From IMG/VR virus record IMGVR_UViG_3300012920_000077, positions 1 to 44,418 of that record: a DNA stretch of 44,418 nt. One strand, 5' to 3'. A program made the position numbers and the translations under genes. The notes below the pieces were generated by a model, which saw nothing but the letters and a program-made list of their open reading frames with translations, had not been told where the DNA came from and ran no database searches. This DNA is from a virus. Below, piece after piece: positions 2,913 through 21,075 of this stretch (its first letter is position 1; each line of letters begins with the position of its first letter).

Positions 2913-3113
2913 ATGAATTTAAACGATAAGGTTGGCAATACAATTTTAAAAAGAGGAGATATAGTAAAAGCTCCTTCTGGTTCAAATGAATGGGTTGTGA
3001 TAAAACACGACGAGAATTATAAAGTTGTATTAGCCTGTATAAGTAAATATATGCATAAAGATCAAAATGATGTGAAAGAGTGGTATAAAATAAATGAGTT
3101 GTCAAGAAAATGA
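2913..3113 (+). CDS. Small hypothetical protein
   Basis: A 66-residue protein with a GGAGGG ribosome site. The sequence 'KRGDIVKAPSGSNEWVVI' suggests a small beta-barrel like those of short DUF2158/KOW-like proteins, but this is only a resemblance. It overlaps the next gene by 20 bases. It is the first gene of the late plus-strand operon. Confidence 0.6.
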   Translation: MNLNDKVGNTILKRGDIVKAPSGSNEWVVIKHDENYKVVLACISKYMHKDQNDVKEWYKINELSRK

Positions 3114-3741: not shown

Positions 3742-5007
3742 ATGTTGATTTTATGGTGCTTGCTAGGTATAGTAGCTGGCATAATTTTTGGAATGATTCC
3801 TGGAGCTGGTCCTTTTCTAGCTGTTGCATCTTTGTATTCATTATTAACAATAAGTGATCCAATTGGTATCTTTACATTTTATGTAGCTCTGTTAATCACA
3901 TCTAATTATATGAATAGTATTACTGGTATTTTATATGGTATACCAGGTGATGCTGCTGCAGCAGTTACAGCTCATCATGGTCATAAATTATTATTAAATG
4001 GTCAAGGACATATGGCTGTTAGTAATAATGCTATTTCAAGTACTATTGGATCTGTTTTTGCAATTGGATTATTTTTTGCTTTTTTACCTAACATATATGA
4101 TGTATTTAAATTTTACAATAGTACTATACAATTAGTAATTATTTTTGTAGCTATACTTTTATTAACAGCTCTGTCAAAACAATCAATATGGAAAACTATA
4201 TGTTTGTTTTTGTTAGGTGGTATCTTAGCTAAGATTGGATTTAATAATTTAACTCATCAAACTTGGGGTACTTTTGGAATAACATATTTAACATTAGGTA
4301 TACCATTTAGTGCTGTAATGATAGGTTTGTATATAATTCCTGAAGTGTTAAAGTTCCAAACATTACAATTTGTTAAAACTCAAAAAGTAACTAAATTTGG
4401 ATATTCACCAAATACTTTACCATCAACATTATTAGGAAGTTTTGTAGGATTCTGGTGTGGATTGATTCCTGGAGTTACAAATATATTAGGAAGTTATTTA
4501 AGTGCAAGTTTTATTAAAAAAGATATTAATAAGATTGCTGCAGCAGAATCAGCTAATAATAGTGGAGCTTTAAGTTCATTACTTCCACTTATTATTTTAG
4601 GTATACCAATAGTTGGTAGTGAGATATTAATATATTACTTAATAGTGGCTCAAGGATTTACTTTTAGTTTAGAAACTGTTTATACATTCTATAATGTACT
4701 TTTTTATGTTCCTATAATTATTAGTATATGTTTATTAGTATCTTGGATTGGATTTAATTACTTAGCATATATTACTAACATATATAAAAAGTATAAAAAC
4801 TATTTTAACATAGGAATAGTTTTATTAATTATTTTAGTTAGTTTAAATATTTATCCTATAAAAGAATGGTTTATTATTTGTTTAATAGCAACTAGTATTA
4901 TAGGATATCTTATTAGACATTGGGATACGTTTCCTGTTTTGTATGGTTATTTTTTAACAGATTTATTTTGGGATAACTTAACTCGAGTTATTATAATATA
5001 CACATGA
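3742..5007 (+). CDS. tctA: TctA-family tripartite tricarboxylate transporter permease
   Basis: A 421-residue membrane protein. 'GMIPGAGP' at residues 17-24, 'GILYGIPGDAAAAVTA' near 62-77 and a second-half copy 'CGLIPGVTNILGSYLS' match the duplicated, Gly-Pro-rich TctA (DUF112) family. The C-terminal 'FPVLYGYFLTDLFWDNLTR' matches the family's closing motif. TctA is the large membrane subunit of TTT transporters, which take up carboxylates using a periplasmic TctC protein and a small TctB protein. It is shorter than the usual ~500 residues, but both halves and the end are present. Its ATG abuts the previous stop, and its end overlaps the next gene by 4 bases (ATGA). No TctB is visible here. Confidence 0.85.
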   Translation: MLILWCLLGIVAGIIFGMIPGAGPFLAVASLYSLLTISDPIGIFTFYVALLITSNYMNSITGILYGIPGDAAAAVTAHHGHKLLLNGQGHMAVSNNAISSTIGSVFAIGLFFAFLPNIYDVFKFYNSTIQLVIIFVAILLLTALSKQSIWKTICLFLLGGILAKIGFNNLTHQTWGTFGITYLTLGIPFSAVMIGLYIIPEVLKFQTLQFVKTQKVTKFGYSPNTLPSTLLGSFVGFWCGLIPGVTNILGSYLSASFIKKDINKIAAAESANNSGALSSLLPLIILGIPIVGSEILIYYLIVAQGFTFSLETVYTFYNVLFYVPIIISICLLVSWIGFNYLAYITNIYKKYKNYFNIGIVLLIILVSLNIYPIKEWFIICLIATSIIGYLIRHWDTFPVLYGYFLTDLFWDNLTRVIIIYT

Positions 5008-6176
5008 AAAATTTAATTTTAGGATATCCTCGAGGACAAAATAAATGGCAAGGATTATCTGAAGCATTAAGCAAACTTGGACAGCTATCTGATATTGTAA
5101 TTGATAACTTTGATCAGATTAAAGGTCCTTATGATAAAATATGGACTATGGCTGAAAGTCTTTTACCTCTTCAAGCTAAGTTAGAGCAAAAATTTAATTT
5201 AAACAATATTTCATTACAAGCTGCAGAAATCTTATCAGATAAAAAAAAGATGGATGATTTTTGTACTAATATTGGTATACAAGATATTATACCATACAGT
5301 GTTATTCCTAAATGTTTAGATGACTTGAATAGGTTTAGATATAAACCATTCATAATAAAACCTACAATTGGATCTGGTACTAAACAAGATTATAAAAATA
5401 AAATTCATTATATGGCATGGAATAATTTGAAAGACTTTACTGAAGATGTATACAGTGAGTTAGTATTTCAGGTTAACAGATCTGGATTTATTGATGAGCA
5501 GTTTGGAAATAGATTAAATTATTATATGGCTCAAGAATATTTACCACATACTAAATTGTATGCACCATATGTTTATGTAAATGAACATCAACAAATAATT
5601 CCTATAATTTGGGTAGAAGGTGATATACAAACTAATGTTATAGATCAATATCGATTTGAAAGTAAACCAATAGGGTTTATGGCTATTGATAATGATCAAG
5701 TGCCATCAGATGTATTAAAACATTTTACTTATTATTATCAAGCTATTGTAGATGAATTAGAAATAAAAAATATGTTTTTTGCAGGACCAGATTTTTACGT
5801 TGGATCAAATATAAAAATTATAGATTGTAATCCAAGAATAGGCCAAGGGTTGCAAATACTTAATGAACTAAACAATTATAATGTTTTATCATCATTAATA
5901 GATAATAAAAAGTTTACTATAGAGAATAAATTTTATTGGACTTTAGCTAAATTAAAACCTGGAATTATAAAACGAGTAAAAGATATGTCTCACTTACAAT
6001 CATATATTACTAGTAGTAACCTGAAGCCAGGAATGGAAATAAGTTGGTCTTTTATTGTTCAAAGCAGTGTAGCTAAAGTTGGATTAAAGATTTCAGGAAA
6101 GACAAAATCCGATATGCTAGAAACATATCGGATTGTTTGTGCACAAATACAAGAGTGTATTGAATATAAAGACTAA
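5004..6176 (+). CDS. ATP-grasp family ligase
   Basis: A 390-residue soluble protein with ATP-grasp features: a 'DKKKMDDFC' helix near residue 79, the nucleotide-binding 'FIIKPTIGSGTK' at 116-127, and the metal-binding 'IIDCNPRIGQGLQ' at 272-284. ATP-grasp enzymes join a carboxylate to an amine or thiol through an acyl phosphate. The substrate cannot be told. It is translationally coupled to TctA (ATGA), so it may act on what the transporter imports or on a product of the neighbouring oxygenase; that is inference. It is distinct from the ATP-grasp-like protein at 34776-35375. Confidence 0.8.
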   Translation: MKNLILGYPRGQNKWQGLSEALSKLGQLSDIVIDNFDQIKGPYDKIWTMAESLLPLQAKLEQKFNLNNISLQAAEILSDKKKMDDFCTNIGIQDIIPYSVIPKCLDDLNRFRYKPFIIKPTIGSGTKQDYKNKIHYMAWNNLKDFTEDVYSELVFQVNRSGFIDEQFGNRLNYYMAQEYLPHTKLYAPYVYVNEHQQIIPIIWVEGDIQTNVIDQYRFESKPIGFMAIDNDQVPSDVLKHFTYYYQAIVDELEIKNMFFAGPDFYVGSNIKIIDCNPRIGQGLQILNELNNYNVLSSLIDNKKFTIENKFYWTLAKLKPGIIKRVKDMSHLQSYITSSNLKPGMEISWSFIVQSSVAKVGLKISGKTKSDMLETYRIVCAQIQECIEYKD

Positions 6177-6955
6177 CTGTTTAAATCAACTGCAGCCAAG
6201 GTTTTGGATACAATGGATTCAGCATTGTTAGAATCAACAACATATGTCTCTGTACCGTCAAATGAAGAAAGCCACTCTTTCGAAGTAGATAATTTAGAAA
6301 CTATACTTCTATAGTTAGATACGACATTAGCTTTTGCATTAACAGATAAAATAACATCTACAAAAGCAAAGTCTAAATCACCATTTGCACTAAATGCAAA
6401 ACAAGTACCATCAGCTTCAACTTTTGATTGTTTTGTTTGAATTGTAAAAATAGTATCTGCATCTCCACCTAGATAACCTCTAGTCGTTGCACCACTCCCA
6501 TCATATGGAACAATTGTTATAGAAGAGTTTAGTTTTGAAGAAAGATTATCTATAAATTTAGCTACAGCTGGTGTATCACCCCATGTAGCAATTTTTATAG
6601 TTTCACCTTTCATATCATCCATAGAAGAATATTTACGACTACATAAAATAGTCTCATATACTTGAAGAGCTATAATAGTATCCTCATTTAGTGGTACTGA
6701 AGGTATATCAGGATTACCTGGCCATTCAGTACTCCACATAGTAATAACATTACCACGATCAAAGTAGCTTGACGCAACTACTGGATTACCAGCTTGTATA
6801 AAACTACTATCAGTATTGTTATCAGCTTTAAAAATCATTGAAAGAACAGCTTTAAAGCCACCAGAATCACTTCCAGTATTGACTATAGCTATATTATCTG
6901 CATGTGCAGAAGTTGCAATTGTTATTGCAAATAAAAAAGATATAAATTTTTTCAT
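6173..6955 (-). CDS. tctC: TctC-family periplasmic substrate-binding protein
   Basis: A 260-residue protein with a classic signal peptide (MKK, hydrophobic core, cleavage after 'SAHA' near residue 19). The mature part resembles TctC/Bug binding proteins: 'DSGGFKAVLSMIF' near residue 30, the 'SSMDDMKGETIKIATWG' segment, and 'IVPYDGSGATTRGYLGGDADTIF', which matches the family's VPYkG-ga-allgG-vD core. It is shorter than the usual ~320 residues. It would capture a carboxylate in the periplasm and deliver it to TctA. It converges on the tctA operon, their ends overlapping by 4 bases, and has a GGAGTG ribosome site and its own early-type promoter. Confidence 0.8.
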   Translation of the reverse strand: MKKFISFLFAITIATSAHADNIAIVNTGSDSGGFKAVLSMIFKADNNTDSSFIQAGNPVVASSYFDRGNVITMWSTEWPGNPDIPSVPLNEDTIIALQVYETILCSRKYSSMDDMKGETIKIATWGDTPAVAKFIDNLSSKLNSSITIVPYDGSGATTRGYLGGDADTIFTIQTKQSKVEADGTCFAFSANGDLDFAFVDVILSVNAKANVVSNYRSIVSKLSTSKEWLSSFDGTETYVVDSNNAESIVSKTLAAVDLNS

Positions 6956-11422: not shown

Positions 11423-12732
11423 TAAAATACCTTTACTTCATATTGTTTTTCAAATGCATCAGCATCTTCAACTGTATTAACCATTGGTAATCCTTTTATA
11501 TTTAGAGATGTATTTAATAACAAAGGACATCCTGTTTTTACATACCATTCTTCTAATATTTGTCTTAATACAGATTTACAATTTTCTTTTACAACTTGAA
11601 CTCTTGCAGTTCCATCAACATGTGTTACAGAATCAAAATCATGTTTAGCTTTAGCTACATATTGCATATATTCATTCATAGGACCACTAAAATATTTATC
11701 AGCCCATTCTTCTAATATTGCTGGTGCAAATGGTCTAAACTGTTCTCTTTGTTTTATATCATTGACTAATTGTTTTATGTGATGTACTCTTGGATCAGCT
11801 AACAAACTTCTATTACCTAAAGCTCTAGGTCCATATTCGGCTCGACCATTAGCAACTCCACAAATTGATTTATCAATTAAATATTTGACCACTTCTCTAG
11901 GATTTATTTCTCTAGTAATATTAGTTCCTAAGTAAGGACTATATTCATACATCTTATTTTTATAAGCTAGAGCTGCACCCAAAGCAGATCCTGCATCTCC
12001 TGGATTAGACATTATCCACACTTCTTTAAACATATCATGTACTTTAGAATTAGCTACACAGTTAAGAGCAACACCTCCTCCATAACATAGATAATTTGAA
12101 TAGTATTGAGCTCTTTTCATTATTTTACATATTTCTGTTTCAATAATTTCTTGAGCTGAAGCTGCTAAATCCATTTCATTAGGATAAATGGTCATTATAC
12201 CTTTATGATAATTTTTATATGGTTTTAATTTATAAAGAGGTTTTCCATAAGCTGCCATACCCATTGTGATATATTCTTCTTCCATAGGTTTTAAAAGACA
12301 GGCTTTTGTTACAGCAGAATAAAATAAACCTAATGACTTAGGATATTTCAAAGACCATTTCTTTTTCTTTTTATACCAAATAGAAGCTGTATCCCATTCT
12401 CCTATTGCATCTATAACTACACAAACTGGTTCTTCTTTAAATGGTCTAGTATAATAAGCTGCAGCAGCGTGAGACCAATGATGCCAAATATAATGATCAT
12501 ATTCTTCTCTTGGTTTCCAAGATTGACCACCCCATAATCTTCTAGTATTTTTCCAAAATGGTTTTTCATAAAATATAGTTTTACCTATAGGCTTATATTC
12601 ATTAGGTAGATTCTTATCATTTTTTATACGAGTAAATCTTTCTGCATGATATGCTGATTCTATTTCAAAATCATTTACATAAGCCCAGGAAGCATCATGA
12701 AAGCCACAAGAAATACCAGTAACTACACTCAT
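11422..12732 (-). CDS. NodU/CmcH-type carbamoyltransferase
   Basis: A 436-residue enzyme of the NodU/TobZ family, which transfers carbamoyl from carbamoyl phosphate through an adenylate. Visible motifs: N-terminal 'GISCGFHDASWAYV', metal-binding 'HHWSHAAAAYY', 'VVIDAIGEWDTAS', 'YGGGVALNCVAN', and the C-terminal 'GRAEYGPRALGNRSLLADPR' with 'RPFAPAILEE'. Families like this decorate sugars or antibiotics; relatives occur in marine T4-like phages, with target unknown. It overlaps gp41 by 4 bases and the methyltransferase by 1. Confidence 0.9.
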   Translation of the reverse strand: MSVVTGISCGFHDASWAYVNDFEIESAYHAERFTRIKNDKNLPNEYKPIGKTIFYEKPFWKNTRRLWGGQSWKPREEYDHYIWHHWSHAAAAYYTRPFKEEPVCVVIDAIGEWDTASIWYKKKKKWSLKYPKSLGLFYSAVTKACLLKPMEEEYITMGMAAYGKPLYKLKPYKNYHKGIMTIYPNEMDLAASAQEIIETEICKIMKRAQYYSNYLCYGGGVALNCVANSKVHDMFKEVWIMSNPGDAGSALGAALAYKNKMYEYSPYLGTNITREINPREVVKYLIDKSICGVANGRAEYGPRALGNRSLLADPRVHHIKQLVNDIKQREQFRPFAPAILEEWADKYFSGPMNEYMQYVAKAKHDFDSVTHVDGTARVQVVKENCKSVLRQILEEWYVKTGCPLLLNTSLNIKGLPMVNTVEDADAFEKQYEVKVF

Positions 12733-15403: not shown

Positions 15404-15921
15404 TATTTTGTTCCTGCATATTTTTTATCGTGTTCTTTACCTAGACCATAGTCTCCATCATAGCTAGAAAGAGCTTCTGATTTAAAGCATAAAAATTGGC
15501 CTATCCTAGTTCCTTGTTTAATTCTAGTCCTAGTAGATAGATTACCTATTATATGCATTACTCCAGCCATTACACCATTATAACCAGAGTCATATAATCC
15601 AGAAGTTAAATAAATACCATTTCTATTAAGTGTAGAACGAGTGATTACCCAACCAGCTTCATCTTCACCTACATTAATTATATTTTCCATAATTACTTCA
15701 TATGACCCGGTACTTAAATTATAATAACCATCTTCATCTGGTTCTATTTCAACACTACCTCTATGAGTCTTGTGATTATTGCTTACTTCAAAATCATTTT
15801 CCCATTTAATAGCAAATAATTTACCAAGTCGAAGATCAACTGCATTAGGTTGAACATCTCCTTCTTGAATATTAGTAAGAGTAGAAGTGGATTGTTTACC
15901 ACCAATATTAATCATTGTCAT
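15403..15921 (-). CDS. dUTPase / dCTP deaminase-family protein
   Basis: A 172-residue trimeric dUTPase-fold protein. 'QPNAVDLRLG' near residues 25-34, 'ITRSTLNRNGIYLTSGLYDSGYNG' around 92-115 (motif III of the family) and the C-terminal 'SYDGDYG' match dCTP deaminase/dUTPase proteins. It would make dUMP for ThyX or remove dUTP. Which of the two reactions it performs cannot be told. Two in-frame ATGs lie 6 bases apart; the first is used here. Confidence 0.85.
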   Translation of the reverse strand: MTMINIGGKQSTSTLTNIQEGDVQPNAVDLRLGKLFAIKWENDFEVSNNHKTHRGSVEIEPDEDGYYNLSTGSYEVIMENIINVGEDEAGWVITRSTLNRNGIYLTSGLYDSGYNGVMAGVMHIIGNLSTRTRIKQGTRIGQFLCFKSEALSSYDGDYGLGKEHDKKYAGTK

Positions 15922-18539: not shown

Positions 18540-19228
18540 TACGTTCTAGTCCCTGCAAATACTTGTTGCATTTTTATATAATCTAAAAACTCTTGCTTAA
18601 CTGATGGATTAAAGAATTGTCCACGAAGCTCAGTAGTTTGAGTAAGAGAGCTATGAGCAAGAACACCTCTGTGTTCCATACATCCATGTGTAGCTTGAAC
18701 ATATACAGCTAAATCTTTTGTTCCTGTATGTTTCATAAGTTCATCAGCAATTGTCATAGTTAACTCTTCTTGTAATGTACCTCTATTAGCACACCATTGA
18801 GCTATACGAGTATACTTAGATAAACCAATAACTTTCACTCCAGCTAACAAACCAATATATGCTACACCCTTTACAGGCTGATGATGATGAGAACACATTG
18901 AAATAAGTTCTGCTCTAGTTACAATGATACCACCATATCGAGTATCTGGATCAACATTAGGAAAAGCTGTAACTTTTGGAGCTTTATCATATCGCCCACC
19001 CATAATCTCATTAATATACATTTTAGCAAGTCTACGAGGAGTATCCATTGAATTAGGATCAGTATAACGATCAATAACTAGAGAATCAAGAACACTTTCA
19101 AACTTAGAAGTAAGTTCTTCTATAAGTTTTAGCTTTTCATCATCATTAATATATTCAGAAATATTATCTCCAGCCCAATATCTTTTACCAGCCTTCTCTA
19201 ATCTATTTTTAATAGTTTGACTTATCAT
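18539..19228 (-). CDS. folE: GTP cyclohydrolase I
   Basis: A 229-residue FolE that opens GTP to dihydroneopterin triphosphate. Zinc ligands are visible: Cys in 'ISMCSHHHQPV' with its His residues, and the second Cys in 'ATHGCMEHRGV'. 'GLSKYTRIAQWCANRGTLQEELT' is the family's helix. Its product feeds QueD (next upstream gene), the first step to preQ0/queuosine-type deazaguanines; it could also feed folate. Single-base overlaps tie it to queD and mazG. Confidence 0.95.
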   Translation of the reverse strand: MISQTIKNRLEKAGKRYWAGDNISEYINDDEKLKLIEELTSKFESVLDSLVIDRYTDPNSMDTPRRLAKMYINEIMGGRYDKAPKVTAFPNVDPDTRYGGIIVTRAELISMCSHHHQPVKGVAYIGLLAGVKVIGLSKYTRIAQWCANRGTLQEELTMTIADELMKHTGTKDLAVYVQATHGCMEHRGVLAHSSLTQTTELRGQFFNPSVKQEFLDYIKMQQVFAGTRT

Positions 19229-20133: not shown

Positions 20134-21075
20134 TTATGTTCCAATCGCGTTTCCAAATAGGTAGCAATGTAATCTACCAGATACATTATATCCTCTTTTA
20201 AAAGCTATTGCAGCTACTTCTCCAGCTGATGCTTCTTGTTCTTCTACAGTAGCTCCAACAGGCATTATATAAACAGGCCATGTAACTCCCGCTTCTCTAA
20301 ACATAGCTAATACTTCTTCCATTTCATCCCATTGTTCTTTATGAGGACCCATAACAAACTTTAATTGTCCATATGGAGATTTAGTTAAACGATTAGCATG
20401 ATATGCCATCAAATTATAATCTTTTACTATTTCTGGATGTATAGCTTTTTCTCTTTTTTCTCCAGCTACTGTCCATAGTTTAGGAGATACAGAAAAGAAT
20501 ACTGGTATAGACCATGTACCTCTATTCATTAACATATTTCTAAAGTCATCTGTAAGTTCTTGAGTTCCATTAGTTTCCCATGTTATACAAGCTGGAGTCT
20601 TATTAGGTATACCTCTCCATTCTTCATTTAATTCAATAACAGCTGCTTGTGCATGTTTCATTAATGGTTCTCCACCAGTAAAACACATATGAGCTCTTTG
20701 TCCTGATACTGGATGTATAAATCCACCTTCAGGATTACTATCAGTTATAGAACATTCTATAACAGCATCCCATATTTCTTTAGCAGTTTTTTGACCCATA
20801 AGATGTTTAAACTTTTTAGACCATGTATAAGAACTATCACATCCTTTATCCCATACAGGCAAGTCTTCAACTCTATTAACAGTTTTAGGATCAAAATCTT
20901 TATACGGAAGTTCCCATGATTCTGGATTAGTAGGATCTATTTGTCCAAAACCATCACATTGTAAATTACATAAAAAGAATCTTAACCAAAGAGTATGAAC
21001 ACCAGTATATAATCCTTCTCCTTGTATAGAGTTAAAGATTTCACTATACATATATTTTCTTTGTTTTTTTTCCAT
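20134..21075 (-). CDS. queE: 7-carboxy-7-deazaguanine synthase, radical SAM
   Basis: A 313-residue QueE, which converts carboxy-tetrahydropterin to 7-carboxy-7-deazaguanine. It opens with the QueE pattern 'YSEIFNSIQGEGLYTGVHTLWLRF', has the cluster cysteines C36 and C40, then 'GCDSSYTW' with C79, and 'CFTGGEPL'. In ordinary QueE the third Cys follows two residues after the second; here 38 residues intervene, which also explains part of the extra length. AGAGGAAAAG precedes the ATG. Confidence 0.92.
   Translation of the reverse strand: MEKKQRKYMYSEIFNSIQGEGLYTGVHTLWLRFFLCNLQCDGFGQIDPTNPESWELPYKDFDPKTVNRVEDLPVWDKGCDSSYTWSKKFKHLMGQKTAKEIWDAVIECSITDSNPEGGFIHPVSGQRAHMCFTGGEPLMKHAQAAVIELNEEWRGIPNKTPACITWETNGTQELTDDFRNMLMNRGTWSIPVFFSVSPKLWTVAGEKREKAIHPEIVKDYNLMAYHANRLTKSPYGQLKFVMGPHKEQWDEMEEVLAMFREAGVTWPVYIMPVGATVEEQEASAGEVAAIAFKRGYNVSGRLHCYLFGNAIGT

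Follow-up and report, generated by a model that had tools for sequence, protein, structure and literature searches.

The viral locus and its gene layout

The window, by which we mean the whole 44.4-kb stretch of DNA analyzed here, is a virus record from IMG/VR whose gene content was read from its open reading frames (ORFs). It encodes a T4-like set of proteins comprising DNA polymerase, clamp, clamp loader, UvsX, a DnaB-type helicase, the major head protein, scaffold, and prohead protease, and it is probably a fragment, since its left edge falls within a gene. The capsid protein is closest to that of phage C48C1 (65% identity), for which no host is given, and about equally similar (58 to 59%) to those of a Stenotrophomonas phage, Pelagibacter phages HTVC008M and Mosig, and Methylophilales phages; the SAR11 host assumed in an earlier note on this DNA is therefore only one possibility and is not established.

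Four adjoining genes form the subject of this analysis (Table 1). The earlier note had reported two of them, a tctA and a tctC gene of the tripartite tricarboxylate transporter (TTT) type, and both ORFs are present at the positions and on the strands listed. It had also described them as convergent and overlapping by 4 bases; however, 1.2 kb lies between them and is occupied by an ATP-grasp ligase gene, and it is with this gene that tctC shares a convergent, tail-to-tail overlap of 4 bases (positions 6173 to 6176). On its other side the ligase gene overlaps tctA, which lies on the same strand, head to tail by 4 bases (positions 5004 to 5007). Two enzyme genes left out of the earlier note thus flank tctA, a hydroxylase upstream and the ligase downstream. 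The 66-amino-acid (aa) ORF ahead of the hydroxylase has no homolog in related loci and hence probably lies outside the core module.

Table 1. Positions in the window of the genes discussed in the text
Feature	Position	Strand	Basis
66-aa ORF	2913..3113	+	ORF list; heads the plus-strand run; 20-base overlap with the hydroxylase gene
AspH-like Fe(II)/2-oxoglutarate hydroxylase, 215 aa	3094..3741	+	HxD...H triad; sub-threshold PF05118; Mosig relative
TctA-type permease, 421 aa	3742..5007	+	PF01970 (E 8.9e-59); duplicated Gly-Pro motif
ATP-grasp ligase, 390 aa	5004..6176	+	Profile-profile match (E 5.8e-12); invariant ATP-grasp residues
TctC-like periplasmic solute-binding protein, 260 aa	6173..6955	-	Sec-type signal peptide; fold and profile matches; PF03401 not reached
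Polytopic membrane protein, about 320 aa	3..851	-	PiT/PHO4 phosphate transporter-like motifs
Nol-like carbamoyltransferase	11425..12732	-	
dCTP deaminase	15406..15921	-	
GTP cyclohydrolase	18542..19228	-	
QueE-like radical SAM protein	20137..21075	-	

A contrast in promoter type had also been proposed, with a late box for the tctA operon and a sigma70-like site for tctC. We found this to be unsupported, because the region upstream of the operon holds no exact TATAAATA (the nearest sequence is CATAAATA, at about position 2876), the window as a whole shows no excess of TATAAATA (8 found versus 12 expected), and sigma70-like sites are no commoner there than chance (42 found versus 49 expected).

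Several other genes of the window are recorded in Table 1, among them those for GTP cyclohydrolase and a QueE-like radical SAM protein, which suggest a deazaguanine pathway. The polytopic membrane protein contains PiT-like motifs (ANDSVQTLGTW; PMSTTWVFVGLLCGREL), and full-length versions, which often adjoin the TctA module, occur in three related loci (L050:6230-7195, L060:6116-7075, and L063:3231-4196). The PiT/PHO4 likeness is a lead only, as Pfam family PHO4 matched just one member of this protein group (E 0.12).

Identity of the four proteins

The permease is a TctA by the family model: it scores 199.6 bits against PF01970 over residues 3 to 395, where the curated cut-off is 28.9, so that the check proposed in the earlier note bore out its assignment. 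The signature of the family is given in PMC5812351 as a duplicated G-Hy3-G-Hy3-G-Hy2-P-G-Hy-G motif, and the GxxxGxxxGxxPG core occurs twice in all 27 phage TctAs compared (27/27), in agreement with the earlier reading; in the window the copies begin at residues 9 and 232, and the last Gly of the second is a Thr. Relative to cellular TctAs, the phage proteins are about 80 aa shorter at the C terminus, ending before the last hydrophobic segment, and their second LGIPG position has a different sequence. A phylogeny against host copies had been suggested, and in the tree that we built, the 21 alphaproteobacterial TctAs included stand apart from the 27 phage TctAs, which form one clade with a local support of 0.76 and a very long stem. 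Judged by sequence, the phage TctA was not copied recently from any of the host genes sampled, because it belongs to this separate, long-stemmed clade and because its best cellular match among 289 genomes of the alphaproteobacterial class, viral contigs in one metagenome-assembled genome (MAG) left aside, reaches only an E value of 1e-27. Some records of the phage collection match TctA at 24 to 30%; a number of these are unannotated, and one is clearly bacterial by name. When PDB sequences were searched with profiles of TctA, the TctC-like protein, and the ATP-grasp protein, all matches were at chance level.

The 260-aa protein is more divergent. It and its full-length relatives carry a Sec-type signal peptide, which we read from the alignment, and a VPYxGSG...DxDTIF core is present in the protein and in all relatives; the earlier note had recognized the signal peptide and a VPYxGxGA...GGxxD core. 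The test against PF03401 that it had proposed went the other way: the window protein has no match, and the best of 23 members reaches an E value of 0.027, below the curated cut-off. The best Pfam score for this group belongs instead to PF12849 (PBP_like_2), with an E value of 4.4e-4 in 2 of the 23 members. A structure model built from 10 sequences was discarded (pLDDT 48); one built from 23 sequences has a mean pLDDT of 72, with only 1 of 5 models good. The first PDB fold match of the latter is MatC (6hke; E 2.8e-5) and the fourth is AdpC (5oei; E 1.2e-4), both of them TTT proteins, MatC being a TTT binding protein that in this structure carries malate. The model is moderate, with TM-scores of 0.4 to 0.5 for these matches, and other type II binding proteins follow close behind MatC and AdpC. 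In the viral structure library BFVD, the top-ranking match bears the name "Bordetella uptake protein", and PBP2_Bug_TTT is the label of three among the four that follow. Such phage proteins (e.g., A0A6J5T9X7) are, like ours, phage-borne binding proteins and supply its best viral fold matches, but they are only about 15% identical to it and 280 to 317 aa long.

In a profile comparison with four binding-protein groups, the TctC profile was the best match (E 7e-4 over 234 columns; reversed TctC profiles as controls, 0.25), whereas the PBP_like_2 and TAXI groups gave matches of only 45 to 50 columns and the PstS-like group gave none. The 289 genomes contain no match to the TctC-like protein, with the exception of the one MAG that holds viral contigs. 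From its sequence and predicted fold, the most fitting reading of the protein is a highly divergent periplasmic binding protein of TctC-like type, and it probably works like a TctC even though its PF03401 score stays under the cut-off.

Like the earlier note, we see no TctB: across the window and 10 related records, PF07331 gave nothing beyond chance-level matches. This negative is a weak one, because sequence conservation in TctB is low and the records could be incomplete. Weak TctB matches at positions 213 to 581 were rejected, since they fall inside the long polytopic membrane protein with PiT-like motifs. In Comamonas, both TpiA and TpiB were needed, according to PMC5812351.

The ligase profile matches cellular ATP-grasp enzymes with a probability of 97.5 over 330 columns, the C-terminal part included (reversed control, 0.48), and the nucleotide- and metal-binding residues (K, GSG, and D-x-NPR-x-G) are invariant. 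Among known enzymes the protein comes closest to L-amino-acid-ligase-like ATP-grasp enzymes (PF13535 with LAL_C2), in that the match is near full length and the cellular relative L225 carries PF13535 together with LAL_C2; the phage protein differs from them in passing the cut-off of no Pfam family and in occurring, among the sequences searched, only in the viral module. In the hydroxylase, the HxD...H triad is invariant across 24 aligned members. PF05118 stays below its cut-off (best E 0.012), a profile search of PDB retrieved beta-hydroxylase chains at E values of 0.04 to 0.09, and the protein is 33% identical to one of Pelagibacter phage Mosig annotated Asp_Arg_Hydrox.

Distribution, linkage, and selection

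Searching with an alignment of four TctAs yielded 49 virus contigs plus two from a Rhodobacteraceae MAG, which together with the window make 52 TctA loci; these counts include repeated assemblies of a given virus, and 23 of 39 full-length loci were left after removal of near-identical TctAs. All four genes are present in 43 of the 52 loci. The other nine are accounted for by contig ends, which cut seven of them, and by two loci, apparently of one virus, without the hydroxylase. Wherever it could be measured (46/46 loci), the ATP-grasp and tctC genes are convergent, with an overlap of 4 to 20 bp, and in five loci of one virus group this pair is inverted relative to tctA. The surroundings differ: tail-fiber and glycosyltransferase genes in one group of loci, gp32 and gp59 homologs in a second, and DUF932, endolysin, and thymidylate synthase genes in the group of the window, or at least three genomic settings around a constant four-gene core. 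This pattern is an argument for joint inheritance and exchange of the four genes.

Pairwise distances among the four proteins are correlated (Mantel r 0.82 to 0.91), which shared phage ancestry can also produce, and on its own this correlation is no proof of a common pathway. The module genes are under purifying selection, as every pair for which dN/dS could be computed gives a value below 1 (TctA, 0.02 to 0.33; TctC-like, 0.08 to 0.25; ATP-grasp, 0.10 to 0.78, above the values of the other two). In several close pairs of loci (L025/L026, L033/L038, and others) the ATP-grasp gene outpaces its neighbors in divergence, as if swapped or selected for change; for L025/L026, its dN is 0.286, compared with 0.010 for TctA.

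A search of 50,697 phage records gave no match to either the TctC-like or the ATP-grasp protein, and the sampled genomes hold no close cellular homolog of the two, except for the viral contigs in one MAG. The Rhodobacteraceae bin carries the module on two contigs (L062 and L063; FZLS01000099 and FZLS01000023). We rejected these as bacterial copies because their gene neighborhoods match those of virus contigs; they are probably phage contigs binned with the bacterium. Some loci (L002, L054 to L056, L005, and L007) hold an extra gene within the module, between tctA and its neighbor; it encodes an FkbM-type methyltransferase in L002 (11922-12581), a second Asp_Arg_Hydrox-like protein in L005 (11930-12415), and other products elsewhere.

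Proposed role and alternatives

In TTT systems, an exported TctC binds a solute in the periplasm and passes it to TctA, which imports it together with an ion. The phage module resembles this system (TC 2.A.80, TctABC) in its TctA with the duplicated motif and in its TctC-like protein with a signal peptide and with MatC and AdpC among the top folds; it differs in lacking a detected TctB, in its C-terminally shortened TctA, in a binding protein under the PF03401 cut-off, and in having tctC on the opposite strand with an enzyme gene between. We favor, with a probability of roughly 55%, the reading that the four genes constitute a virus-specific module for TTT-like, TctB-less uptake, with enzymes acting on the substrate. 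In its favor are the gene identities, at the strength given for each above, the conserved linkage and order, the correlated distances, the purifying selection, the several genomic contexts, the export signal, and the lack of close cellular relatives in the sampled genomes. Against it weigh the sub-threshold PF03401 and PF05118 scores, the moderate structure model, the undetected TctB in view of the Comamonas result, and the two loci without the hydroxylase. The TctC-like protein would be exported to the periplasm during infection, where it would capture a solute, most likely a carboxylate-bearing one, and pass it to TctA in the inner membrane; TctA would import the solute by ion-coupled symport without a recognizable TctB. 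From their linkage, we infer that both enzymes would act on the imported compound or a derivative within one common pathway, the ligase joining carboxylate and amine by amide ligation and the hydroxylase adding a hydroxyl group with the consumption of 2-oxoglutarate and oxygen. A fuller version, which we put forward only tentatively, is that this is a phage-evolved, TctB-independent importer with a dedicated ligase and hydroxylase, moving between T4-like lineages as one module, by which an external carboxylate is imported and converted; it would be a viral pathway and not a borrowed host gene.

The earlier note had proposed that a phage carrying both TctA and TctC might rewire carbon uptake. 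The pair itself stands, for TctA by the family model, for the TctC-like protein by fold and profile, and above all through its conservation across many virus contigs; membership of the latter in PF03401 does not. Rewiring of carbon uptake is unsupported, given that TctB was not found and that the two overlooked enzymes are linked as tightly as the transporter genes.

An unlikely alternative, yet the one that survives best, is that the four genes are a cell-surface (lipopolysaccharide or glycan) modification cluster against superinfection, to which the transporter supplies a precursor or in which it has another role. Many loci adjoin glycosyltransferase, FkbM methyltransferase, nitroreductase, and carbamoyltransferase genes beside tail-fiber genes, and pelagimyophages have been reported to carry O-chain genes for host modification (PMC7029224). 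However, the four-gene core occurs without those neighbors in the window and in L040 to L048. A periplasmic binding protein together with an importer is also not known to be usual in surface-modification clusters. We consider it improbable that the 260-aa protein is a member of some other type II binding-protein family without a TctA partner, with TctA acting alone, as most archaeal TctAs are presumed to do, and the linkage incidental: the PF12849 score points that way, as does a report that archaeal TctAs are mostly stand-alone genes (PMC5898192), but profile comparison favors TctC over the PBP_like_2 and TAXI groups, MatC is the top PDB fold match, and tctA and the tctC-like gene occur together wherever the contig permits, in changing contexts. 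Least likely is that the module has no transport role in infection, with the binding protein serving in sensing, phage exclusion, or adsorption and TctA repurposed; non-transport roles such as signaling have been proposed for bacterial TctC homologs (PMC5812351), and the altered LGIPG position and missing last hydrophobic segment would fit, but the duplicated motif is retained throughout, purifying selection on TctA is strong, and genes for two soluble enzymes accompany it.

Published mentions of tctA in phages were limited, in the literature searched, to a "protein domain hit" in a contig from a SUP05 virus (PMC4164917; mentioned again in the review PMC6359870) and to a norB/nirK myovirus scaffold with "tricarboxylate transport" genes (PMC8115048). 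These share with our loci the presence of such genes on virus contigs; they differ in being a single domain hit or a passing mention, the excerpts describing no binding protein, ATP-grasp enzyme, or conserved module. Neither the pairing of tctA with tctC nor the two enzymes nor the constant gene order is described in that literature.

Metabolic genes of viruses are, as a rule, single copies derived from a host. In the present case a permease, a likely binding protein, and two enzymes make up a conserved module without a close cellular relative in the sampled genomes, found in dozens of virus contigs yet absent from all records of the phage collection searched. The recurrence of these four genes in many uncultured T4-like phages suggests that such phages equip the bacterium they infect with a nutrient-uptake route of their own; if this is true, phages build an uptake pathway of their own inside infected cells.
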